Shown piece by piece: positions 4,273-14,804 of a stretch of 64,000 nt of DNA (position 1 is its first letter; each line of letters opens with the position of its first letter). The notes under the pieces are model-generated. The model was not told where the DNA came from. It made no database searches and saw only the letters and a program-made list of their open reading frames with translations. The stretch lies in assembly GCF_014218355.1 (NCBI RefSeq), contig NZ_AP023368.1, positions 5,023,501-5,087,500 of the forward strand, written 5' to 3'. Origin of the DNA: Anaerocolumna chitinilytica. Its GTDB lineage: Bacteria > Bacillota > Clostridia > Lachnospirales > Lachnospiraceae. A program made the translations under genes and the position numbers.

Positions 4273-4399
4273 ATAGTTTCAAAGATAATAAGAACAGCTT
4301 AAGAAATCAGGACTGATACTAGTGAAGTGTATTACCCCCAAAAACCTATCATTATGACAATGATTCATTTTCAGTAAAAAACTAAACAGTACATCCAAA

Positions 4400-4429
4400 A
4401 AGCCTTGAAATACAATGATTTCAAGGCTT
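4400..4429. terminator. Bidirectional terminator
   Basis: A perfect 12-bp stem (4400-4411 with 4418-4429) with a 6-base loop. T-rich sequence follows on both strands. It lies between the convergent anti-sigma and P-loop genes. Confidence 0.8.
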
Positions 4430-4560
4430 TTGTTATTAGTCTTATTATCTCCTTTGATAGCTTTTACCCTTGCTTTTTAAAGGCTTTCTAACGTTTTTGT
4501 AACCTACTTTGTACTTTACGTTAATTACCTGTAGCTTCTCATAGTTGTCTAAATTAATTT

Positions 4561-5232
4561 TTACATACGATTAAGATTAAAATGATTAGCCAGAATTTCT
4601 AAAGTTTCAGCCTTGGTATCTATATTAGCGTCAGTTCTTACAATCGTAAAAAATCCACTCTTGGCATATTCATCATAATGCTCCTTACTATTCACTATTG
4701 CTATGCACGCTTTATAATTCTCCATTGTTTTCTCCGGATCTTTCGCTTTCATTATCTGTTCCTTTATAAAAACCTTATCAGGATCATCACGGTCAAAAAA
4801 CTTCTCAACCGACATAGCCTGTGGTGACAGCATTACTGCCACTTGATTATAATCTGCAATCTCATGCAATATATCAAGAGGTATATTGGTATCCACAATA
4901 ACCTTTTGGTTTTGAGATATACGAATTAGTTCTGCCACTTCAAACTCAGCAGCTTCCTGCGCACCTCCAAGTATCCATTTTTCATATTCTTCTGGCGTCC
5001 GATTCACAAATTCCTGCCAATCTTTCATTGTCTTAAAGTAACACAAATTAGGTTGACGTTCTGGTATTATAACTTCATCCGCAATTCTGGAGTGATAATT
5101 TTCACCACATTGAACCAGTCCATATGTATCTGCTAACATTGCTACCATTGTTGACTTACCTGCATATGCCGTACCTGTAATAAACATCACATTTTTCAAA
5201 TAATGCTTTATAATATTATTATCTATTTTCAT
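4561..5232 (-). CDS. P-loop ATPase/kinase-like protein, intact copy
   Basis: A 223-residue soluble protein with a Walker A loop GTAYAGKST near residue 20 and, further on, VIVDTNIPLD as a plausible Walker B-type strand. Size and layout fit small nucleoside/shikimate-kinase-like P-loop folds (the AAA_33/zeta-like group), but I do not recognise a specific substrate. A paralogue at 949-1615 is frameshifted. It is transcribed from its own promoter and sits 82 bp behind a 13-codon leader with attenuator-like pairing. Genes so controlled often answer to ribosome-targeting drugs, so an antibiotic-modifying or tolerance role is possible; this is inference from the leader alone. The ribosome binding site is AGGAG, 8 bp from ATG. 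Confidence 0.8.
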   Translation of the reverse strand: MKIDNNIIKHYLKNVMFITGTAYAGKSTMVAMLADTYGLVQCGENYHSRIADEVIIPERQPNLCYFKTMKDWQEFVNRTPEEYEKWILGGAQEAAEFEVAELIRISQNQKVIVDTNIPLDILHEIADYNQVAVMLSPQAMSVEKFFDRDDPDKVFIKEQIMKAKDPEKTMENYKACIAIVNSKEHYDEYAKSGFFTIVRTDANIDTKAETLEILANHFNLNRM

Positions 5233-5356
5233 TGTATTATCTCCTATATTCTACAACAAATAAACCTATGCTGTTTGCATAAGCACATTTAACATATTAA
5301 TAACTTTAATAGAATTAATGAAATCTATTGTTGTTAAATAAGAAGTGACACCACAT
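5233..5356 (-). promoter_or_regulatory. Putative translation attenuator, copy 2
   Basis: It has the same design as copy 1. Leader segment UUAUUUAACAACAA pairs with UUGUUGUAGAAUA upstream of the P-loop start (7 pairs, one mismatch, 5 pairs). The pairing stops a few bases short of the AGGAG, so sequestration is weaker than in copy 1. The intervening hairpin is kept at 5265-5283 (seven pairs, loop AAACA) with a different loop and compensating base changes. Confidence 0.55.
5315..5356 (-). CDS. 13-residue leader peptide MWCHFLFNNNRFH, copy 2
   Basis: The ribosome binding site GGAGGAATAAATT precedes ATG 5356, and TAA ends at 5315. The first ten residues match copy 1 exactly; the last three differ. 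Trp2, Cys3 and His4 at the start would be the likely stall region if it acts as a drug or amino-acid sensor. Confidence 0.65.
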   Translation of the reverse strand: MWCHFLFNNNRFH

Positions 5357-5377
5357 AATTTATTCCTCCGAATTAGA

Positions 5378-5405
5378 ATATTATCATAATATCGATAATT
5401 ATCAA
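5378..5405 (-). promoter_or_regulatory. Promoter of leader/P-loop transcript, copy 2
   Basis: TTGATA at 5405-5400 and TAATAT at 5383-5378 on the minus strand have the same 16-bp spacing as copy 1. The -35 is followed by ATTATCGATATTAT, a near-palindrome that may be an operator. Confidence 0.55.
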
Positions 5406-5540
5406 TACTTAGCTTTCATTGGTAATCATCCTTGGTACCTATTCTCTAGCGATTAGATTATTATAATAATTATATATCAGATAAGTTACGAACCCCACCG
5501 TCATTGTATGAGGTTCTTTTTTTATGTCCTAAGCATGACG

Positions 5541-6518
5541 TTAAAAGGCTTTTTCTAAATTTAATTTATCATTTACAAAATATAAATTATAATATCCCTT
5601 TGATAATAGAGTATTCTTAATTATTTCAGCTTCATATCTATCTTTTAAAGAAATTACAATTGTATCATCTTTATCATATTTTTCTATAGCATTTACACCA
5701 TATTGCCTAATTGATTGTGAGTTATTGTGAGTATCCGTAACTGCAATACCTTTTATTTGAATATCATACTTATCAAATCTATACAATAAATCCAAACACC
5801 TTTTTCCTGCCCCATATATAACTAGTGCTTTATTTTCATCTTTTATTTTTTGCATAATTCTAAAACATTCAAACCTATGCTTATTATAATAATTATTTAA
5901 AATATTCCCCCATATTTCCATATTTCCACGCCAATCGGCTCTTTCTTGTGTAAAGCCGTTAAATGTATCATTAAAACTATATTCCTCAATAGATAAACAA
6001 TCACTTAGCACATATCGCTTCATATTATATGAATTTATGTCCATTTCTTCATTATTTCGTATGTTTATCAATTTAATTTCTAAATGTGGATATAATGATG
6101 AAAATTCCTTTAAAAAAAGCTGTAATTTTTCTATAGTATCTGTTCTATTGCAAATCAAAACCACTCGCTTTGCTTTCTCTAATTTATCATCCATATTTTT
6201 AAATCTTTTACTCATTTTTTCAAGGAACTTTTTTTGTGCTTTTTCAACTTCTATATTCCTTGGAAAATGATGAATAGAAACAATATTATTTATAGTATCA
6301 TTAATCCATCTATATTTACTATCCCCCCTATTATTATCTTCTTCAATATCAACAAAAAAATCAACAAATTGGGTTTTAAATAAATGAATAACGGTATCCA
6401 AAGAATACTCCATCTGCCAGTCTAAAGGATATGCTTCATTTCTTAAATCATTTGCCTGCAAATGATATGCAGGACGACATGCACCTCCGACTGATATATA
6501 TAAATCATAATAATACAT
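5541..6518 (-). CDS. DUF1796-type putative cysteine peptidase with C-terminal Rossmann-like domain
   Basis: 325 residues. The N-terminus (YISVGGACRPAYHL ... LRNEAYPLDW) matches the DUF1796 pattern of putative papain-like cysteine peptidases, with Cys in GGACRPA and the P-x-DW motif. After a coiled region (about 90-125) the C-terminal part has a dinucleotide-binding-like start, ALVIYGAGKRCLDLL, followed by IKGIAVTD and VISLKDRYEAEI, as in nucleotide-sugar or PglD-like domains. Such combinations are seen with surface polysaccharide genes, but there is no such cluster here. The gene stands alone between the P-loop gene and an integrase relic. Activity is unproven. Confidence 0.65.
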   Translation of the reverse strand: MYYYDLYISVGGACRPAYHLQANDLRNEAYPLDWQMEYSLDTVIHLFKTQFVDFFVDIEEDNNRGDSKYRWINDTINNIVSIHHFPRNIEVEKAQKKFLEKMSKRFKNMDDKLEKAKRVVLICNRTDTIEKLQLFLKEFSSLYPHLEIKLINIRNNEEMDINSYNMKRYVLSDCLSIEEYSFNDTFNGFTQERADWRGNMEIWGNILNNYYNKHRFECFRIMQKIKDENKALVIYGAGKRCLDLLYRFDKYDIQIKGIAVTDTHNNSQSIRQYGVNAIEKYDKDDTIVISLKDRYEAEIIKNTLLSKGYYNLYFVNDKLNLEKAF

Positions 6519-6729
6519 TTCAACCTCCTTAGCTATACTAGCGAAATGTTCTTAGGGATATTTTTCCTTGATTATAAGACATTTAACGGTAATTTAACAC
6601 TATTTTCTCTTCTAATATACCAGTCGAAAATCTAATTTGTCAAATACATACATTATTTTAGTAGTTGAGCAGGTTGTAAATCTTCAAATTCTGATACTAC
6701 CGTATGCAAATCACACCCATGTAATTTCT

Positions 6730-7146
6730 GTCTTATATATGAATGATAATTTTATGGCTTTACATAAAAAGCACAAGCACGAGCAACGCAAGTTACAGTT
6801 GGCTATGGGTTCAGACTTCAAGCATCCCGAAATTGTGTTTACTTCCTCTACAGGCAATTATAAAGACCGTAGTTGTCTTAATACCTCATTAAAGCGTTTC
6901 TTAAAGGTACAGACTTTGAATATCTGACTTTACACAAACTTAGACATACAAACGCTTACTTTATTTCTAAATAATGGAATTGACTTGAAGATTGTTTCAG
7001 AACATTAAGGTCATGCTGATATTCAGATTACAGCAGGTACTTATACTGCTGTCTTAGATAGTTCACGTATTAAAACTGCTGAACTTATGGAACAGATTTT
7101 ATCAGAACAAACACCAAATAAACATCAACTGATTAAAATCGGATAA
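6730..7146 (+). pseudogene. Tyrosine recombinase (integrase) C-terminal relic
   Basis: Three pieces of one integrase C-terminus can be read in successive frames: MALHKKHKHEQRKLQLAMG...NTSLKRFLK, then GTDFEYLTLHKLRHTNA, then NNGIDLKIVSEH-stop-GHADIQITAGTYTAVLDSS. The catalytic box R of HKLRHT, the H-(x)-GH pair and the Tyr of AGTYTAV are recognisable, but two frameshifts and one in-frame stop make it inactive, and the N-terminal half is missing. The gene ended 52 bp before the direct repeat at 7199. Confidence 0.85.
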
Positions 7147-7198
7147 AGAAAAACCCTCGGAAAGGTTGATTTCCAAGAGTTTGTAAGTTCTTGATAAT

Positions 7199-7209
7199 TA
7201 TCTCTTTGA
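7199..7209 (+). repeat. Left copy of the island direct repeat (possible att core)
   Basis: TATCTCTTTGA here matches 14413-14423, which covers the last codons of rpsI. Position next to an integrase relic and inside-facing arm repeats supports an attachment site. The match is only 11 bp. Confidence 0.4.
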
Positions 7210-7260
7210 TAGATGTTTGATAAGTGTAGAACCGCATAAATGGTGGATTCTTTGAATGGA

Positions 7261-7282
7261 GTGTTAGTTACGTGTTTGTTAC
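7261..7282 (+). repeat. Tandem 11-bp repeats near left island end
   Basis: GTGTTAGTTAC and GTGTTTGTTAC occur in tandem. The same tandem 11-mer (TTGTTAGTTAC twice) is found at 14301-14322 in the same orientation. These look like integrase arm-type binding sites just inside each end of the island. Confidence 0.5.
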
Positions 7283-7302
7283 CCATAACTATGTGCTTCA
7301 AT

Positions 7303-7926
7303 CTAATAATTTATATCATCAAATATTATTGGTATTATGCCTTTGAATTTATCAAGCATTTTACAAGCCACTTCTCTCATCTGCGGATGTGCTTTTGTAG
7401 ATGTTCTCAGCTTAAAAAAATGTCTCCACTCACGTAAATTCATCGTTACAACTATTTCAGTCTTTAAACTATTTGGCAAAATACTCCTAGCTTCTTGAGG
7501 TGTTACTCCCATTTCTATCATTTTATTATATGCTTTTTCAATCTGATCCATTGACTCAAGCCACAACTTATATTGTTCACTATTTTCATCCCAAAATATT
7601 GGTTTAATTAAAGTTAATTCTTTTCCGAATTTTTCATTACTATAATTGCAATAACGAGTACTTTCTTGACTATAGCTTGCTATTCTATGTCGAACAATTT
7701 CATGCGTGACTCCCCTATCACATATTATTCTAACTGAGATTTTTTCATGTTCAATTACTGACTCATGTCCATTTTTAAGTATGCTAGATATGAATTTTTT
7801 TGATGAATCTTCCGTAATACGATCCTCGCTTTTATAGCAAACCCTTCCAATAATTTCGATCTTCCTAAGTATCTCGTCTCCCTTTATCTCATCTAAAATT
7901 TCAAATGACGGTTCAATAATTCTCAT
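7303..7926 (-). CDS. thyX: Flavin-dependent thymidylate synthase ThyX
   Basis: 207 residues. The ThyX signature is present as RHRIASYSQESTRY near residue 80 (family pattern RHR-x7-S-x-R), plus HESVIEH and a C-terminal LREWRHFFKLRTS block that carries FAD/dUMP contacts. The known reaction is dUMP to dTMP using methylene-folate, NADPH and FAD. Ribosome binding site AAAGGAG lies 5 bp before ATG. It is the last gene of the cluster and starts 18 bp after the PRTase stop, so it is co-transcribed. It may be a normal thymidylate source riding on the island, or a nucleotide-modifying partner of the HD and PRTase proteins. Confidence 0.9.
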   Translation of the reverse strand: MRIIEPSFEILDEIKGDEILRKIEIIGRVCYKSEDRITEDSSKKFISSILKNGHESVIEHEKISVRIICDRGVTHEIVRHRIASYSQESTRYCNYSNEKFGKELTLIKPIFWDENSEQYKLWLESMDQIEKAYNKMIEMGVTPQEARSILPNSLKTEIVVTMNLREWRHFFKLRTSTKAHPQMREVACKMLDKFKGIIPIIFDDINY

Positions 7927-7944
7927 AAAATCTCCTTTCCATAT

Positions 7945-8571
7945 TTACATATCGATACAAATACACTTTCCATATGCTTGCTTTATTTGACATTCTTCTT
8001 GCTTTATTACATCTAACTGAAAACTCGTATTAAGATATACTGCAATTTTTTCATATTTCCATGATTCATTATCTTTTATTTCTCTACCAAATATTGATAA
8101 TATATTTTTTATCATTGAAACTTGAATTTTACATTTATTTATTATTTCGTCAACAGTATCACCTGTAGCTATAGCATCAGTTACAATTATAATATGCTTG
8201 TTCTCACATTCTATGGATATATCCTGTTCAGATTTTTCCAAATATTCCGGAATATAATATGTATATAAACATCCCAAAGCATAAGCCAATAATGTTCCAA
8301 TTTTCAACCCTTCTGTGCCTGCAGCAACAATAATCACATTTTCTTTTCCATACTGGCTAACTACATTCTTTGATAGTTCAAAAAATTTTGAAACGATCTT
8401 CTTCAATACTGATTCATCATCTAATAATTCAGCAATATCTATCCATTCATGCGTACATATTTTGCTATTTATTTTATAATTTCCTGTTCGTAATAGCTTT
8501 TTTTTCCTTATCTCTTCCTCAAGATATACACTTATTTCTTGATCGGATATTAATACTTTTTTATTTTTTTT
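7945..8571 (-). CDS. Orotate-PRTase-like phosphoribosyltransferase, probably read by slippage from the HD gene
   Basis: The frame is open from 8571 to the stop at 7945 but has no ATG or GTG; the first standard start is a TTG at 8406, which would drop the N-terminal third. That third (EISVYLEEEIRKKKLLRTG then ICTHEWIDIAELL) aligns in layout with the N-terminal hood of PyrE-like enzymes, so it is probably translated. The PRPP loop is IIIVTDAIATGDTV and there is a preceding NVIIVAAGTEG strand. The preceding HD frame and this one overlap on an A10 run; a -1 shift, or one added A in the mRNA, gives a continuous HD-PRTase polyprotein. A homopolymer sequencing error in a true single gene would look the same. 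Substrate base unknown. Confidence 0.75.
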   Translation of the reverse strand, partial: KKNKKVLISDQEISVYLEEEIRKKKLLRTGNYKINSKICTHEWIDIAELLDDESVLKKIVSKFFELSKNVVSQYGKENVIIVAAGTEGLKIGTLLAYALGCLYTYYIPEYLEKSEQDISIECENKHIIIVTDAIATGDTVDEIINKCKIQVSMIKNILSIFGREIKDNESWKYEKIAVYLNTSFQLDVIKQEECQIKQAYGKCICIDM

Positions 8572-9488
8572 TTAGGATGGTCTAAATATATCTGCATATC
8601 TGAGTTGTAAGTTTCAATTTCAACACTATGAAATATTCGATAAAAACAACCATCTATTTTATGCGATATGTAACTATTTATACATTCTAATTCTTTAATA
8701 ATTTTATTTTTTACTTCTAATATCATTTCTCCCAAATCATCATTAAAACCATTTTTTTCAAAATAGTAATCATTTGTAGCAATCTTAAGTTGATCATTTT
8801 TTTCGGGATCTTTATAAATCTTATCAACTAATACCAATTTCATATGATGACTTTTTGACAGTCTATCTTTCTCTAAGTTTTCATTAAAGTGGTATTCATT
8901 TTGTGGTCTATTAATTCGATCAACTGTTGAATCTAATTCGTCAGCTAAGCGTAAAGCAGCTCCTATTTGACAAGCTAATTTATCATCATCAGTTTTCGTA
9001 TGTTCATATTTTTTATATAGTTCTTCTAATGTATTTACCTTTACTCCAACATTATTTTTAATATTTCCATGTCCATAAATAGCTGATGCGATAATTTTAG
9101 CACTACTAGCATCTAAAACACTATTAATCTCATTTCGATCATTCGAATAAATTGCATCCAAAACAAACATTTGTCCATCTTTTGCATGTGTTTCCCTCAA
9201 CTCAGTATTATCAGCCATAACAATATCATGTAATAAAACAGCAACATCTAATAAAAATATAGTTTTTTTAGATGGTTTTTTACTAAAATCAACAACCGTT
9301 TCACTTATAATCTTATAAATATTTTTACAATGAGTTGAATAGTCATGTGTCGTAAATTTTATTTCTGAACTTGCTGCTCCTTGGTCTAATCTTTTTCTGA
9401 AAATTCCCCGAAGAGTATTAAAATTTTCTATGTAAATTGAATTTTCTAAATATTTTATGCAATCATATTCATCTTCTTCATAAGTCAT
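8550..9488 (-). CDS. HD-domain phosphohydrolase
   Basis: About 312 residues, starting at ATG 9488 (ribosome binding site AAGGGG, 7 bp) immediately after the stop of the gene before it. Metal-ligand residues fit the HD superfamily: His in FTTHDYSTHCKNIYKI, HD in VAVLLHDIVM, further His in RETHAKDGQ and YGHGN, and Asp in ALRLADELD. The overall pattern resembles HD proteins of bacterial conflict systems that are paired with Hsp90-like ATPases; I could not verify a named family. The expected activity is hydrolysis of a phosphate ester or nucleotide. In the zero frame it ends DHPKKKIKKY at 8550, just after the A10 run that could send ribosomes into the PRTase frame. Confidence 0.8.
   Translation of the reverse strand: MTYEEDEYDCIKYLENSIYIENFNTLRGIFRKRLDQGAASSEIKFTTHDYSTHCKNIYKIISETVVDFSKKPSKKTIFLLDVAVLLHDIVMADNTELRETHAKDGQMFVLDAIYSNDRNEINSVLDASSAKIIASAIYGHGNIKNNVGVKVNTLEELYKKYEHTKTDDDKLACQIGAALRLADELDSTVDRINRPQNEYHFNENLEKDRLSKSHHMKLVLVDKIYKDPEKNDQLKIATNDYYFEKNGFNDDLGEMILEVKNKIIKELECINSYISHKIDGCFYRIFHSVEIETYNSDMQIYLDHPKKKIKKY
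8564..8573 (-). promoter_or_regulatory. A10 slippery run joining HD and PRTase frames
   Basis: Ten consecutive A residues on the coding strand (T10 on plus) followed by TA6G. Zero frame ends three codons later; a -1 shift reads AAT-AAA-AAA-GTA-TTA and enters the 209-codon PRTase frame. Runs of this kind allow RNA polymerase slippage or dnaX-like ribosomal frameshifting. Confidence 0.55.
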
Positions 9489-9492
9489 TAGT

Positions 9493-10491
9493 TTACCCCT
9501 TTTCATCATATAAATTTATACTATACTTAAATTCACTTTTATACTTAGTAATATCTACTAATGCTTCATAATTTATATCTCCACTATATCTCACTAACGG
9601 CAATACTCGTCCTATTCCAATTCCACCAACAAGTTCAGCTCTATGCATGTTTAAAATTACATTTAATATTTTTAATTCTGTACCAAGACATAATACATCA
9701 TACACATAGAAATATTTACTATGCTTATTTATCTTCTTCCATAAATCCTTTTCTTTTATTATAACTTTTGGTCCAAGATTTAGTAAATACAATACTTTTT
9801 TTCTAAATATAGCACCTAGTACCGTTGCTAATACAGCGCCATTATTACTTGTGCAAACAAAACTATCAAATTCATTGTTATGTTTTAAAATATGTCTATA
9901 CAATCCATACAAACAAAAATTTAACATATCAGGTTTTGCATAAATTTTTTTAACATTAATGTACTTTGACAAATACACATTAGAAGATTCATTGTACTTA
10001 TTTAAATCTAAATAAATATCTTCAGATAACAAAGTTTCAACTAATTTAGTTGTATATATATCGCTACACTCAGCTATGAGAGATTCCTTACTTATGCTTT
10101 GTAACATATGAGCTTTGGTACTCATTACCAACGAATTCTCTCCATACCATTTTTCCCACACGATATTACTACCAAATTCGCTTTTTATTATTGAACACAA
10201 TTTTTCTGATACATTTATTAATAAAACAGTTTTTTCCATTTCAACAAATTGGTGAAAAACTTTATCTGCGCTAGCAATTTCTTCTAAATCAAGAATGATA
10301 ATATCTGACTCAAAATTCTTTATTTCATCAACAATGGAACTCACCGCACCATTTGTAACAAATTCTCTAGTTGGTTGAGCCTCCCCTTCATTAGCTTCCA
10401 TTTGAAAATAATCAATTACGTTGCTTTGCCAAAATAACTCATATTTTATTGAAATATACCCGTAATCATAGTTTTTTAATTTTATTATCAT
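9493..10491 (-). CDS. STAS-like / phosphoribosyltransferase-like protein
   Basis: About 332 residues. The N-terminal half contains a STAS-like stretch (SDIIILDLEEIASADKVFHQF followed by KTVLLINVSEKL). The C-terminal half looks like a PRTase fold: FDSFVCTSNNGAVLATVLGAIFRKKVLYL and the loop YFYVYDVLCLGTELK, a degenerate PRPP-binding motif. Catalysis is therefore uncertain; it may bind PRPP or a nucleotide as a sensor. GTG 10494 or ATG 10491 is the start, with AGGGG six bases before the ATG. It starts 10 bp after the GHKL gene and ends 4 bp before the HD gene, so the genes are tightly coupled. Confidence 0.65.
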   Translation of the reverse strand: MIIKLKNYDYGYISIKYELFWQSNVIDYFQMEANEGEAQPTREFVTNGAVSSIVDEIKNFESDIIILDLEEIASADKVFHQFVEMEKTVLLINVSEKLCSIIKSEFGSNIVWEKWYGENSLVMSTKAHMLQSISKESLIAECSDIYTTKLVETLLSEDIYLDLNKYNESSNVYLSKYINVKKIYAKPDMLNFCLYGLYRHILKHNNEFDSFVCTSNNGAVLATVLGAIFRKKVLYLLNLGPKVIIKEKDLWKKINKHSKYFYVYDVLCLGTELKILNVILNMHRAELVGGIGIGRVLPLVRYSGDINYEALVDITKYKSEFKYSINLYDEKG

Positions 10492-10500
10492 CACACACCC

Positions 10501-11502
10501 CTACTGAAAACCTATTTCAAGCTCACATTGAACTCCTGGCATATAAATACCCTCATCAACAAAAATATTTTTTTCATCTTTAATTGCCTTGTCTATTTCG
10601 GAAAAATATTTTTCTTTATTTTCGTGGAGTATTGAAACAAAATTATTATAAAAATTATCAGTTATAACTACTCTAGTATCGTTTGAACTTATTCTAATTA
10701 TTCCTTTTCTCTTTACCGTTTCTGAAACAGCATCATATATACCAAAATCAGGTGTATCACTTCTATAAAAAATGGCTTCCATTATTGCATGTAGTTCTTT
10801 ATACTTATCATTTTTTAATTCAACCAATCTCTTTGGAGTCATAAAATGTAAATTCATTATTTCATCTTTACAAGCTCTTTCATACATTGAAGTATAAATT
10901 CCCGTCCCCCAATCAGAAACAGACACCATAAATTTTTGTATTGATTTAAGATTTTGAAAAGTTACATAACAATCTGTTTTACCATGCCTAGTAGAATTAA
11001 CACAAAAATTCCATATCATATTCATCACTATAATACTATTATTGTTATCCCATTTATCATAAATAGCCGAAAAACTGTCTTGCACAGTGCCCATAACATT
11101 CCATATCATGTCTTCAGTATAATTGTTTTCAATGTGATATGTCTTTTTATTGGGATCTTTTTTGGGCAAATATCCGCCTATATATTCTTCTAAAACCTCA
11201 TAAATTTCATCATCACTGTTATATTGTAAAAACTTAACATTGTCTAAATATGACAATAACGTTTCTTTTGTTGGTATATATAAAACAGCACTTTTTCCAC
11301 ATACTTTTTTGATCCATTTGCCCATGACTAATAAATCCGGTATAACTAATGGATTTACAATATCAACAATTCCCCAATCCAAAAAAAGTCTTTTACTTTC
11401 ATAAATACTACAATTAATAAACTTATTTATTTGAGGTAGAATCTCAAAATATAAATTAAATGTCGATATTTTTTGTGGAAACCTAACAATGTAATATTCC
11501 AT
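10501..11502 (-). CDS. STAS-GHKL (Hsp90-like) ATPase, first gene of island cargo operon
   Basis: About 333 residues. The N-terminal 100 residues resemble a STAS domain (RLFLDWGIVDIVNPLVIPDLL, then SAVLYIPTKETLLSYL). The middle has a Bergerat ATP-binding fold: N-box MNMIWNFCVNSTRHG and the G1 box VSVSDWGTGIY (D-x-G-x-G). No His-phosphorylation or receiver domain is present, so it is not an ordinary sensor kinase. ATG 11502 is preferred because AGGAATGAGGG precedes it; ATG 11550 is an alternative with a weak site. In known conflict systems such ATPases act as sensors or chaperone-like switches; here that is inference from the HD/PRTase neighbours. Confidence 0.7.
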   Translation of the reverse strand: MEYYIVRFPQKISTFNLYFEILPQINKFINCSIYESKRLFLDWGIVDIVNPLVIPDLLVMGKWIKKVCGKSAVLYIPTKETLLSYLDNVKFLQYNSDDEIYEVLEEYIGGYLPKKDPNKKTYHIENNYTEDMIWNVMGTVQDSFSAIYDKWDNNNSIIVMNMIWNFCVNSTRHGKTDCYVTFQNLKSIQKFMVSVSDWGTGIYTSMYERACKDEIMNLHFMTPKRLVELKNDKYKELHAIMEAIFYRSDTPDFGIYDAVSETVKRKGIIRISSNDTRVVITDNFYNNFVSILHENKEKYFSEIDKAIKDEKNIFVDEGIYMPGVQCELEIGFQ

Positions 11503-11590
11503 TACAACCCTCATTCCTATCATAATAAATTCACGTAGAATCTTTTTCATTATAACAAACTCTCTAGATTATTGCCACATTTTTCAAGTT

Positions 11591-11619
11591 TTTATACAAA
11601 TAATTATCACAAGTATCAA
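11591..11619 (-). promoter_or_regulatory. Promoter of the GHKL-PRTase-HD-ThyX operon
   Basis: TTGATA (11619-11614), 17-bp spacer, TATAAA (11596-11591) on the minus strand. The -35 lies inside a hairpin palindrome AAGTAT-CAAA-ATACTT (11611-11626), a possible operator. Confidence 0.6.
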
Positions 11620-11646
11620 AATACTTATTTTATATATATTCAAAAA

Positions 11647-11669
11647 TATGAGAGCCGATGGCTCTCATA
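11647..11669 (-). terminator. Terminator after the Mob relic
   Basis: A perfect 10-bp stem (11647-11656 with 11660-11669), 3-base loop, followed by ATTTTTG on the minus strand. It insulates the cargo operon from the decayed genes upstream. Confidence 0.8.
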
Positions 11670-11711
11670 AAATTAGATTCCCACAAAGTCCCTTACCTTT
11701 TTCTTCACTCC

Positions 11712-12950
11712 CTACATAAATTTCTCAAATAGCGTCATTTCCCCAATCATAAATCGCTTAACAAACTCATATGCGTCATTCAACTTCTGCTTCAAACTTC
11801 GAATTTCTCCGTCTTTCTTCTCATTCTCGTACCGAAGCTGAACCACTTCTTCAAACAAATCATGCTCCTTGTCAGAGCCAGCACCGCTATACATGAAAAA
11901 GACTTCTTCCGCTATTTCTGCTTTTCGACTTTTCTCTTCCAGTTTAGCAGAAACTACCTTGTAATCGTCTTCCACAACTGTAAGTTCCTTCTTTGCCAAA
12001 TCTAACTTTCAATCATAATACCGAACCGTACCATCAACTTGCTCCAGATTCATCTTTTTATCTGTCAGCATTTCATCTAGCTTAAATATAGTAGAAGCTT
12101 TCTCCGTAACTGCTTTTTCTTTCGCTTTCAAATCTGTTTCCACCAAGAAAACTATCTTTTCAGCTTCTTTGGCTCGTTCAGCAGCTCGCTCTCGTCTATA
12201 ATCCGATAATAACAAATCGCCACGTTCATTCTTACCCTTAAAGAATCGCTCCCAGCCAAGTTCCTTTTGCATATAGTCAGCAATCCACTCACTCTGCTCC
12301 TCAATCCAAGTCACGGCTCCATACTCCACTTTTTTCATCTGTGGAACTTTCCCCTGTGGTGTATCTTGCCAGACCAGATTATCAGATTCATCAACAGCTT
12401 GCTTCATGGTGGTTGCATATCCCATTCGTTTAAATGTCTGTGAAAATGCATTCTGAACACTTTGCCCTCTACTACAATTCTTCACATAAAGGATAAAAGT
12501 CATATGAAGATGTGGTGCTGATTCATCTCCATTAAAAGCCATATTATTGATTACAATTCCTTCCTCAAATGCTGGCTTCCAATCTGGATCAGCAATTCTA
12601 TCTTTCGTTAGAAAAGTTACATTCGGGACTTCGGTCAGCATATGTTCTGCAAAGTCCAGCAATGCCCGTTCCGCAAATAGCGAATCATAGAAATTATTAT
12701 CATATCCCGTATCTCCCATATCTCCTATCTGCCAGATAATTTCATACTGCTCATGCTCTGTTTATCCTGCTTGATTTTCTCATAATAAGTATCAGGACAC
12801 CAATCCCCACGACTTTTCTTAATCTCCTTTTGTCTCCACTCCTGATAAGAAGCCTCAAACAACTTGTCATATGCTTGCTCAATGGTAAAATCTCTTGTAC
12901 CATTAACATAATAGACATTTCTATCTTCTCTATCATGCGTTGCATTTCTC
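11712..12950 (-). pseudogene. Mob/Pre-type relaxase, decayed
   Basis: A plasmid-mobilisation relaxase in three readable pieces. The N-terminal piece (about 12950-12770) reads KRNATHDRED...FTIEQAYDKLFEASYQEW...YYEKIKQDKQ; a frameshift follows; the second piece reads EHEQYEIIWQIGDMGDTGYDN and continues with the metal-binding motif APHLHMTF in the frame ending at 12009. An in-frame TGA there separates it from a coiled-coil tail (KLDLAKKELTVVEDDYK) ending at 11712 in FMIGEMTLFEKFM. One frameshift and one nonsense codon make it inactive as a single protein. It shows that the island was once mobilisable. Confidence 0.8.
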
Positions 12951-13790
12951 TTTATACCTTTTCTAGATGCTTCCTCTTCAATATCCTTAGAAGAAACTTC
13001 GCTTTCTACTCCGAAGTATTCCTTGATAAAGGCAATAGCTACATCTAACTTCTTTCGACCTCTGCCTTCTTTCCCTGCAAGCAGTTCATTTACTGTTATG
13101 TCATATGGACCGATACACTCAAATCCTCTGTCTTCTGATATTTCAAATCCAATGGAATCTCCTGCCGCCGCAAGACTGATTTATCTTGTGCCATAATACG
13201 AATGTTGGGTTTATCTGGTATTTTTGCTACTAGTAATACACTTCTAACCGTTGCCTGAATATCAATAGAGCCAAGTCCTCGATATGTTGACTTTGAGCCA
13301 GAAGCTTTATTCATGTGACCGATTAGAACAATGGCACATCCATACTTTTCAGCAATTATCCCTAAGCGCTTTAATACGAATCGTATCTCATTGGCTCGGT
13401 GCATATCTACATCAGAACCGATATAGGTTTGAATCGGATCTAGAATTACAAGCTTTGCTTTTGTTTCAGCGATTGCCTGCTCTAGTCTTTCATCCGTCAT
13501 ACCCAGTTCTTTCTCTGTTTCATCAATCACATGGATTTTGCTACAGTCTGCATTCGCCTTTTCAAGTCTTGGCTTTATCGTATCGTCAATCCCATCCTCC
13601 GCAATTTGGTAGATAATGTTAATTGGCTCATATGGTATATCTTCATCACATGGAAGAGGTTGCCCTCTGCTAAGTAGTGCCGCTAATGTTAGTGCAAGTG
13701 TTGTCTTACCTTCTCCTGGATCTCCTTCTATTAAGAAGCTTTTGATATAATTATATTTGCGAGATAAGATATATCAGCTCTGCTGGTTGT
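12951..13790 (-). pseudogene. RepA/AAA_25-type ATPase, decayed
   Basis: A replication-helicase-like ATPase. A Walker A motif is seen (SFLIEGDPGEGKTT, around 13720), then KAKLVILDPIQTYIGSD (Walker B) and IVLIGHMNKASGS. Near 13140 the frame shifts: the homologous tail (GFECIGPYDITVNELLAGKEGRGRKK...) is in another frame. That tail runs without a stop into the first residues of the Mob protein, so a deletion seems to have fused Rep and Mob. At the 5' end another shift near 13775 breaks the N-terminus. Not functional. Confidence 0.75.
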
Positions 13791-13802
13791 CTTTAAGTCC
13801 TT

Positions 13803-14110
13803 TCCCTTTGGGTTAGGACTTTTTTATTGGAATCCCAATAAAACCACTCCCTTCTTTCTTTGTTGCTACACTGCCCTTGATACTTCTTTGAAATATCCAA
13901 TTTCTTCCTATGCCTTCTTGCCAGGGCAAAAGTAGTTGTATTCTGAGGAATTCTCCATCTTGAATGCATATCCAAATTTGAGAATCCCTTTTTGCAATCC
14001 GACTCTTATATATTGGGCATCTTTTCCGATGGCTTTTGTATTTTAGCAATCGGAACATTCGCCCTGTAAATGACGGAAGCTCAATCTGGTAATTTACTTC
14101 TCCCATTAAA
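13803..14110 (-). other. Unresolved remnant upstream of the Rep relic
   Basis: Two overlapping minus-strand frames of 97 and 60 codons exist here, neither with a recognisable domain. One begins at ATG 14106 after GGTGAAGTTTA. Given the frameshifts around, this may be the 5' part of the Rep module. Function unknown. Confidence 0.3.
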
Positions 14111-14256
14111 CTTCACCTCCCAATACTCTATAAGCAATCAACCAAATTTAATCCCACAATACAAGTTCCAAATCATAAGGAACTTGAAAAATGAAGGAGA
14201 GCAAAATGAAGAATATATTTATTCCTAGAAGTTTGCCTAAAAAACGATATCAAAAA

Positions 14257-14294
14257 AGGATGTTCTAAGCACTGATTAGCACTTAAAACATCCT
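14257..14294 (-). terminator. Terminator downstream of rplM-rpsI
   Basis: A 13-bp stem with one mismatch (14257-14269 with 14282-14294), followed on the minus strand by TTTTTTG. It lies inside the island's right end and would stop rpsI transcription before the Rep/Mob relics. Confidence 0.75.
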
Positions 14295-14300
14295 ATATTT

Positions 14301-14322
14301 TTGTTAGTTACTTGTTAGTTAC
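14301..14322 (+). repeat. Tandem 11-bp repeats near right island end
   Basis: TTGTTAGTTAC occurs twice in perfect tandem. A close copy of the pair lies at 7261-7282. These are probably integrase arm sites. Confidence 0.5.
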
Positions 14323-14411
14323 CGTATTAAATCCACACCATTTTACGACATTCCAGAACTTCAAGAAGCCAGTAAATATGCGGTTTTGCACGATTCCACA
14401 AACGGCACAGA

Positions 14412-14804
14412 CTATCTCTTTGAGAACTGAGGAGCACGACGAGCTGCTTTTAAGCCGTACTTCTTTCTTTCTTTCATTCTAGGATCTCTTGTTAAGAAAC
14501 CAGCTTTCTTTAATGCAGGACGATATTCCTGATCAGCCTGTAATAAAGCTCTGGAGATTCCGTGACGGATTGCGCCAGCCTGGCCGGTGAAACCACCTCC
14601 GTGAACGTTAACAAGTACATCAAACTTATCTACTGTATCAGTAATGGTAAGAGGCTGACGAACGATTAACTTTAATGTCTCAAGTCCGAAATACTCATCC
14701 ATATCTCTTTTATTGATTGTAACTTTACCAGTTCCAGGTACTAAATATACTCTGGCAATACTGCTTTTTCTTCTTCCGGTTCCGTAGTATTTTGCTTTAG
14801 CCAA
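14412..14804 (-). CDS. rpsI: Ribosomal protein S9
   Basis: 130 residues, full family length, with the [12 protein letters not shown] start and the conserved C-terminal tail ending APQFSKR that reaches the ribosomal P-site tRNA. It forms an operon with rplM, which ends 25 bp upstream. Its last codons coincide with the putative island attachment repeat, and the intact C-terminus suggests insertion restored the reading frame. Confidence 0.97.
14413..14423 (+). repeat. Right copy of the island direct repeat within rpsI 3' end
   Basis: TATCTCTTTGA covers the stop and last codons (SKR) of rpsI. The 3' end of rpsI is a known integration target of some Firmicute ICEs and IMEs, so use as attB is plausible. 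Confidence 0.4.

Follow-up and report, generated by a model that had tools for sequence, protein, structure and literature searches.

A conserved gene set for a GHKL ATPase, phosphoribosyltransferase domains, an HD hydrolase and ThyX on an insertion at rpsI of Anaerocolumna chitinilytica

What unites a tight run of genes that encode an ATPase, phosphoribosyltransferases (PRTases), an HD hydrolase and a thymidylate synthase, and what could such a set be for? The question is raised by an operon in a stretch of 64,000 nucleotides of Anaerocolumna chitinilytica (contig NZ_AP023368.1, positions 5,023,501 to 5,087,500; hereafter the window, whose numbering is used), in which an initial annotation had seen five genes. 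The conserved, mobile and nucleotide-themed set it described (GHKL ATPase, HD hydrolase, two PRTase domains and ThyX) is retained here, but not the count, because the HD and PRTase frames are fused in relatives and are thus one gene. The operon therefore has four genes, all on the minus strand, for a GHKL-type ATPase, a STAS-like–PRTase protein, an HD–PRTase protein and ThyX. The three core genes, joined by ThyX in most loci, very probably form one functional module, and this module is likely to serve biological conflict; as judged from sequence, it probably changes the supply of nucleotides and thereby defends its carrier from rival DNA such as phages. The parts of the operon are the following.

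10501..11502, minus strand: gene 1, STAS-like N-terminal domain and GHKL (Bergerat) ATPase, 333 amino acids (open reading frame, conserved N-box and G-box residues)
9493..10491, minus strand: gene 2, STAS-like N-terminal domain and PRTase with the unusual phosphoribosyl pyrophosphate (PRPP) loop D-x-x-C-x-G-T-E
8550..9509, minus strand: gene 3, first part, HD-CE hydrolase domain (likely start 9488; the frame stops just past an A-run)
8564..8573, minus strand: run of ten A (A10) at the HD–PRTase linker, site of the frame change
7945..8563, minus strand: gene 3, second part, orotate-PRTase-like domain (open frame, different from that of the HD part; fused to HD in P0006-P0010 and P0013)
7303..7926, minus strand: gene 4, ThyX, flavin-dependent thymidylate synthase (conserved RHR region)
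11549..11578, minus strand: candidate promoter upstream of gene 1 (GTGGCA, 18 nt, TATAAT, TG before the -10 element)

A single promoter had been proposed for all frames; a candidate does lie upstream of gene 1, but promoter-like sites in the region scanned around the operon are present at chance number, and the proposal was not kept.

Conservation of the core genes and the place of ThyX

Genes 1, 2 and 3 are found in the same order and on the same strand in six divergent loci, namely the window, L002 (Lachnoclostridium sp. An131), L003 (a metagenome-assembled genome of Bacillota), L004 (IMGVR_UViG_2834443690_000002), L034 (genome G270) and L084 (IMGVR_UViG_3300048574_000396). Their proteins share about 22-49% identity between different loci, and the operon genes are unbroken in L004, L034 and L084. 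Homologues scattered away from this neighbourhood, on which the initial annotation had staked its proposal, were looked for, and what was found is the core trio together in all six loci and ThyX in five.

ThyX is a type of thymidylate synthase common in phages. Gene 4 scores 153.5 bits against the NCBIfam thyX model TIGR02170, above the cut-off of 87.9, and matches Thy1 with an E-value of 9.5e-57, and the RHR region is invariant in the four operon copies aligned. The gene lies directly behind gene 3 in five of the six loci; since L084 was found by a search that started from ThyX, four of the five loci found without it, at gaps of about 20 bases or less, is the less biased figure. This placement makes ThyX probably a partner of the core genes, and the view that it is unrelated cargo, offered earlier as the alternative, is disfavoured. 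In L002, a 279-residue protein with no Pfam or PADLOC match (L002:11858-12697) occupies the place of ThyX and is possibly an alternative fourth component.

A thymidylate synthase beyond that of the operon is present in three of the four genomes searched. The window genome encodes ThyA (1310520-1311326) besides the operon ThyX, G270 carries another ThyX away from the operon, which a rough tree puts on a very long branch, and the genome of L002 has ThyA but lacks ThyX. In the fourth, the L003 metagenome-assembled genome, the operon ThyX is the only thymidylate synthase seen, which speaks against redundancy there. The nearest relatives of the operon ThyX are viral, with up to 72% identity, in a search that covered viral and phage collections only. 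From 142 relatives found, 80 viral ThyX loci were kept with up to 5 kb of flank each, and two of these carry the module, L073 (identical with L004) and L084. The ThyX tree was built from 71 of 91 extracted proteins, after removal of rows shorter than 150 amino acids (L075, L086, L087 and L061) and of identical rows, and without the chromosomal ThyX of G270. Operon copies are intermixed with phage copies, and a single origin of the operon ThyX was not adopted since the best tree needs four changes, yet a single clade is not rejected (p-AU 0.111).

Domains of the core proteins and the linker of gene 3

The start of gene 1 at 11502 agrees with its relatives, the longest frame opening at 11550. 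In its GHKL domain, the Asn, the His and the D-x-G-x-G of the aligned N and G boxes are invariant in all six loci; the match to the YycG ATPase domain has an E-value of 0.001 and that to HATPase_c is weak (E 0.1). The presence of a Bergerat ATPase without a kinase domain had been pointed out as an oddity. This is no longer the case, as the GHKL domain is itself the serine kinase in anti-sigma-factor kinases and in CapK (PMC13373217).

In gene 2, the D-x-x-C-x-G-T-E loop and an S-x-N-G loop, corresponding to the PRPP and pyrophosphate loops, are invariant in an alignment of 30 sequences. When gene 2 is set in register with what we take to be the orotate PRTase motif, its PRPP loop has other residues in place of the first acidic one and of the Thr, the Thr giving way to Cys (residue 269 in the frame from 10494, invariant in 30 of 30 aligned proteins). 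Structure comparison assigns the PRTase domains of genes 2 and 3 to orotate/adenine PRTase folds (type I PRTase), with PRPP and pyrophosphate loops that are recognizable and altered. The VIA and Foldseek lists for gene 2 were filled by PRTase domains and so bear little on its N-terminal domain. Likeness to the conflict domain PRTase-CE (PF24390) is faint, with three of 29 gene 2 members matching at a best E-value of 0.0076, not above the curated cut-off, and no match in genome G000 at E 1e-4. Because the loops are altered, ordinary synthesis by the two PRTases is doubtful; both probably bind a nucleotide or PRPP.

The HD domain of gene 3 belongs to HD-CE (PF24391), a family known mainly from sequence, with 60.1 bits against a curated cut-off of 27 (61.5 bits in L084) and matches in nine of nine A13 members (E up to 0.5, best 1.4e-20). 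Residues H50, H55, H87-D88, H101, H179 and D225 (L084 numbering) are invariant in eight of eight aligned proteins, and the site would be expected to bind metal. The PRTase part matches orotate PRTase 3dez (E 3.9e-7) and reaches 14.5 bits against PRTase-CE, below its cut-off of 27; its PRPP loop, T-D-x-x-x-T-G-x-T, keeps one of two acids in aligned relatives other than L084. A search with the HD protein gave nine proteins: six fusions of 514-549 residues (P0006-P0010 and P0013), two HD-only proteins (P0011 and P0012) and the window's own.

The frame of the window gene switches at the A10 run in the linker. A run of the same length stands at the linker of L003 (L003:10920-10929), again with a frame change, and both runs carry A AAA AAG with a stop close behind. 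The run of L034 (L034:11052-11061) leaves the frame unbroken, the other two frames meeting a stop within about 10 codons, and L002, L004 and L084 have no long run at this place. In L003, a second frame break lies in the PRTase part (L003:11400-11430), again near A-runs. Synonymous shuffling places an A10 somewhere in gene 3 with a probability of 0.09-0.63 (0 for L084). The pattern suggests an A-run whose length varies through mutation, sequencing error or slippage, and a slippage or phase-variation site is possible. Programmed frameshifting, also possible, was taken no further in view of the second break in L003, the three of six loci without a run and the yield of A10 by chance.

Whether the window copy still works is a separate matter. 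That it is dead, its gene 3 split in a decaying island, is a serious possibility though the less probable state, and would concern this copy rather than the system. The frame break, a broken integrase and short pieces of other element genes are consistent with decay. Against it, genes 1, 2 and 4 have open frames, and identity is 94% between gene 2 and P0001 and 97% between the HD part and P0006, a fusion that reads straight through. The recurrence of A10 at this linker in three divergent loci would also be compatible with slippage that gives both products, with a reversible change in length or with a sequencing error.

Mobile setting and sporadic occurrence

The island at rpsI described by the initial annotation was borne out by comparison within the genus, and its main features are given below.

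4457..14413 (approximate limits), no strand: insertion at the rpsI 3' end carrying the operon (same-genus comparison)
7262..7283, plus strand: 22-bp repeat, att-like (partner 14302-14323, 20 of 22 bases, chance expectation 0.00)
14302..14323, plus strand: 22-bp repeat, partner of 7262-7283
6637..7140, plus strand: decayed tyrosine recombinase with stops and frame changes, near the inner repeat (three-frame translation, assigned by eye from motifs)
13096..13530, minus strand: piece of a RepA/RadA-like AAA_25 ATPase, probably of a mobile element (Pfam AAA_25, E 8.6e-11)

Homology to the rpsI region occurs in genomes of the genus at 13 places other than the window's own, and in 10 of them it starts exactly at 14413; in four of these 10 (L159, L164, L166 and L168) the site is empty, the rpsI end continuing straight into a match to window positions of about 4392-4457; the operon-bearing insertion is thus about 10 kb long, and it contains the decayed recombinase. 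The same match sits about 1 kb away in L163, and the homology of L160 (G009) extends into the element end. Within the genus, the rpsI 3' end appears to be a hot spot for insertion, and a piece resembling 7194-7285 was seen near rpsI of G011 (L157). Because the 22-bp repeats lie inside the insertion, off its outer limits, they suggest two tandem elements or a composite. The G+C content is 26-32% in the operon kilobases as against 38-39% just past rpsI. The insertion also holds a DUF1796 protein, a putative papain-like cysteine peptidase whose C-terminal half has no assignment (5541-6518), and a P-loop-type protein (4561-5232) that is very similar to a shorter one about 3.5 kb away (1070-1615).

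Elsewhere, the module adjoins TniB-, TnsD- and TnsE-like genes of a Tn7-like element and a PADLOC PDC-S15 gene (L003), a resolvase, two integrases and an OLD-like gene (L004), or an integrase, a UvrD helicase and a PD-(D/E)XK protein (L034); the L084 copy, on a viral contig, has a ClpP-like SDH protease as neighbour. No extra gene is constant beside it across the six loci.

Its occurrence is sporadic. The HD protein is found in one of 61 genomes of relatives and the gene 2 profile in one of 397 genomes of the family, in both cases the window's own, and full-length matches among 398 genomes of the phylum are restricted to the window's genome and G270. The latter search gave further partial matches, four to the gene 2 profile and 22 to the HD–PRTase profile, of which 21 cover the PRTase part only and one the HD part only; the 21 appear to be about as long as housekeeping pyrE, and PRTase-only matches were left out of the count of the system. 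The gene 2 profile retrieved 26 proteins from a database of 5.8 billion (7998 candidates scored). No match to the HD–PRTase P0006 was obtained in plasmid and phage records at E 1e-5, nor to the gene 1 and gene 2 proteins of L004 in plasmids (tblastn, E 1).

Proposed mechanism, precedents and competing explanations

A conflict mechanism directed at the nucleotide pool and governed by a CapK/VapK-like switch is plausible but tentative, its details more so; its trigger, each catalytic and regulatory step and defence itself we infer from gene content and precedent. Gene 1 would be an ATP-driven sensor or switch, like the GHKL kinases CapK and VapK, and its target would be gene 2, which joins a STAS-like domain to a PRTase whose PRPP loop is altered. 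Gene 2 would read the level of nucleotide or PRPP and restrain gene 3, the effector, whose HD site would take phosphate off a (deoxy)nucleotide and whose orotate-PRTase-like site would strip or exchange the base, leaving DNA synthesis starved. ThyX would either supply dTMP/dTTP, the metabolite by which the threshold is set or triggered, or protect the carrier. This proposal is favoured because the gene order is kept in divergent loci, mostly with ThyX, while further thymidylate synthases exist (ThyA in the window genome, ThyX in that of L034). The conflict setting is favoured because of the sporadic occurrence, the mobile or defence neighbours and the rpsI insertion, as well as the HD-CE domain with invariant HD residues, an HD-CE–Hsp90-like fusion in L035 and the precedents of CapK/VapK and Clover discussed below.

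CapK is an HTH-STAS-GHKL kinase activated by single-stranded DNA, which phosphorylates the STAS protein CapS and thereby frees an operon (PMC13373217). VapKSC was modelled like CapKS for a PIN toxin and gives about 2-log protection against one phage, VapK activation itself being a step that its authors could not test (Chambers et al. 2026, PMC13373217). As in these systems, a STAS-like and GHKL first gene is followed by a protein with a STAS-like start and then by the effector, often near defence genes; the likeness of gene 1 to CapK and VapK is one of domain make-up. The differences are that gene 2 carries a PRTase, unlike VapS with its short tail and CapS with its winged helix-turn-helix, that its STAS-like domain has no invariant Ser/Thr, that an HD–PRTase replaces the PIN nuclease VapC (no PIN nuclease matched among the operon proteins) and that ThyX is added. 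As the Ser/Thr of CapS and VapS is unconserved in gene 2, the switch, if any, would work otherwise, for example by ATP-dependent binding.

In Clover (CloA/CloB), an HD dGTPase is switched on by dTTP that rises during infection (PMC12265719). An HD-superfamily enzyme with a thymidine-nucleotide link is the common trait, the nucleotide pool being both target and signal in Clover, where this was tested by its authors; unlike Clover, the operon has PRTases and a GHKL ATPase and no match to a nucleotidyltransferase (CloB) among its proteins, and its link to dTTP is suggested by ThyX alone. A thymidylate synthase was also reported recently in a validated defence system (PMC13092281). The Ter systems, for which PRTase-made nucleoside signals were proposed (PMC7824862), likewise place PRTases in a conflict setting, and the operon proteins gave no match to a Ter component. 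A weak match (E 8e-5) was obtained between the PRTase part of gene 3 and the PADLOC PRTase of type III-A retrons; no reverse transcriptase was found among 10 proteins in and around the operon, and retron non-coding RNA was not searched for. In L035, from another genome, a single 781-residue protein (L035:1-2346) combines HD-CE with an Hsp90-like ATPase, linking HD-CE with GHKL ATPases in general, whereas the window module has its ATPase as a protein of its own and HD-CE joined to a PRTase. The component domains are already known from conflict systems, and searches of PADLOC and of open-licence PubMed Central (PMC) papers, which did not extend to Burroughs and Aravind 2020, reportedly the likely source of HD-CE and PRTase-CE, gave no named counterpart of the combination, in line with the initial annotation.

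Several observations weigh against the proposed mechanism. L002 has no ThyX behind gene 3, and its neighbours, judged by eye, are of polysaccharide type and not defence genes. PADLOC yields weak PRTase matches only for the window operon and no match for genes 1 and 3 of L004. No Pfam STAS match was obtained for the N-terminal domain of gene 1 or gene 2, nor any among PDB sequences for that of gene 1, and no Ser/Thr is invariant before residue 170 in the 30 gene 2 sequences. The N-box glutamate is kept by four of six gene 1 proteins, with Asn in its place in the window and L084. In gene 3, which is frame-split in the window and in L003, the PRPP loop has lost the Asp in L084 and the Gly in L002 and P0013.

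Among other accounts of the system, a signalling role is unlikely. The PRTase protein would make a nucleotide-like messenger that the HD domain removes or limits, gene 1 would sense stress, ThyX would sustain thymidylate and a host target or a further gene would act as the effector. Two PRTase domains and an HD domain suit such make-and-break logic, as do the Ter proposals and the invariant loops of gene 2; no further gene, however, constantly accompanies the module, and loops altered relative to what we take to be the orotate PRTase motif speak against ordinary synthesis. A metabolic cassette, in which pyrimidine salvage and thymidylate supply support replication of a mobile element or virus with the GHKL protein as regulator, is less likely still: the orotate-PRTase-like domain and ThyX are both pyrimidine enzymes, and the nearest ThyX in the collections searched are viral, but the carriers (a Tn7-like element, viral contigs and an rpsI insertion) would not be expected to replicate in a common way, ThyA is already present in the window host, and neither an HD-CE hydrolase nor an ATP switch is an enzyme of salvage. 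A narrower form of the conflict proposal is improbable as a whole, namely a defence operon with its own thymidylate synthase, in which ThyX output (dTMP/dTTP) would be the signal that a PRTase regulator and an HD–PRTase effector weigh against the nucleotide pool of the cell, the slippery A-run setting the ratio of HD-only to fused product. Least probable is that ThyX is separate cargo and the first three genes alone form the system, a view consistent with L002 and with the intermixed tree but opposed by the tight placement behind gene 3, by the single ThyX clade that is not rejected and by the fact that several gains at one spot would themselves signal a functional link.

If the proposed conflict mechanism is true, nucleotide-pool immunity would extend to hydrolase and phosphoribosyltransferase chemistry with a dedicated thymidylate synthase, under a GHKL switch of the type recently tied to immune control. 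The unbroken loci L004, L034 and L084 are a defined set in which the sensing of and attack on thymidine and pyrimidine nucleotides during infection may be studied, and the module, if it acts as proposed, would offer a function to look for in the HD-CE family.

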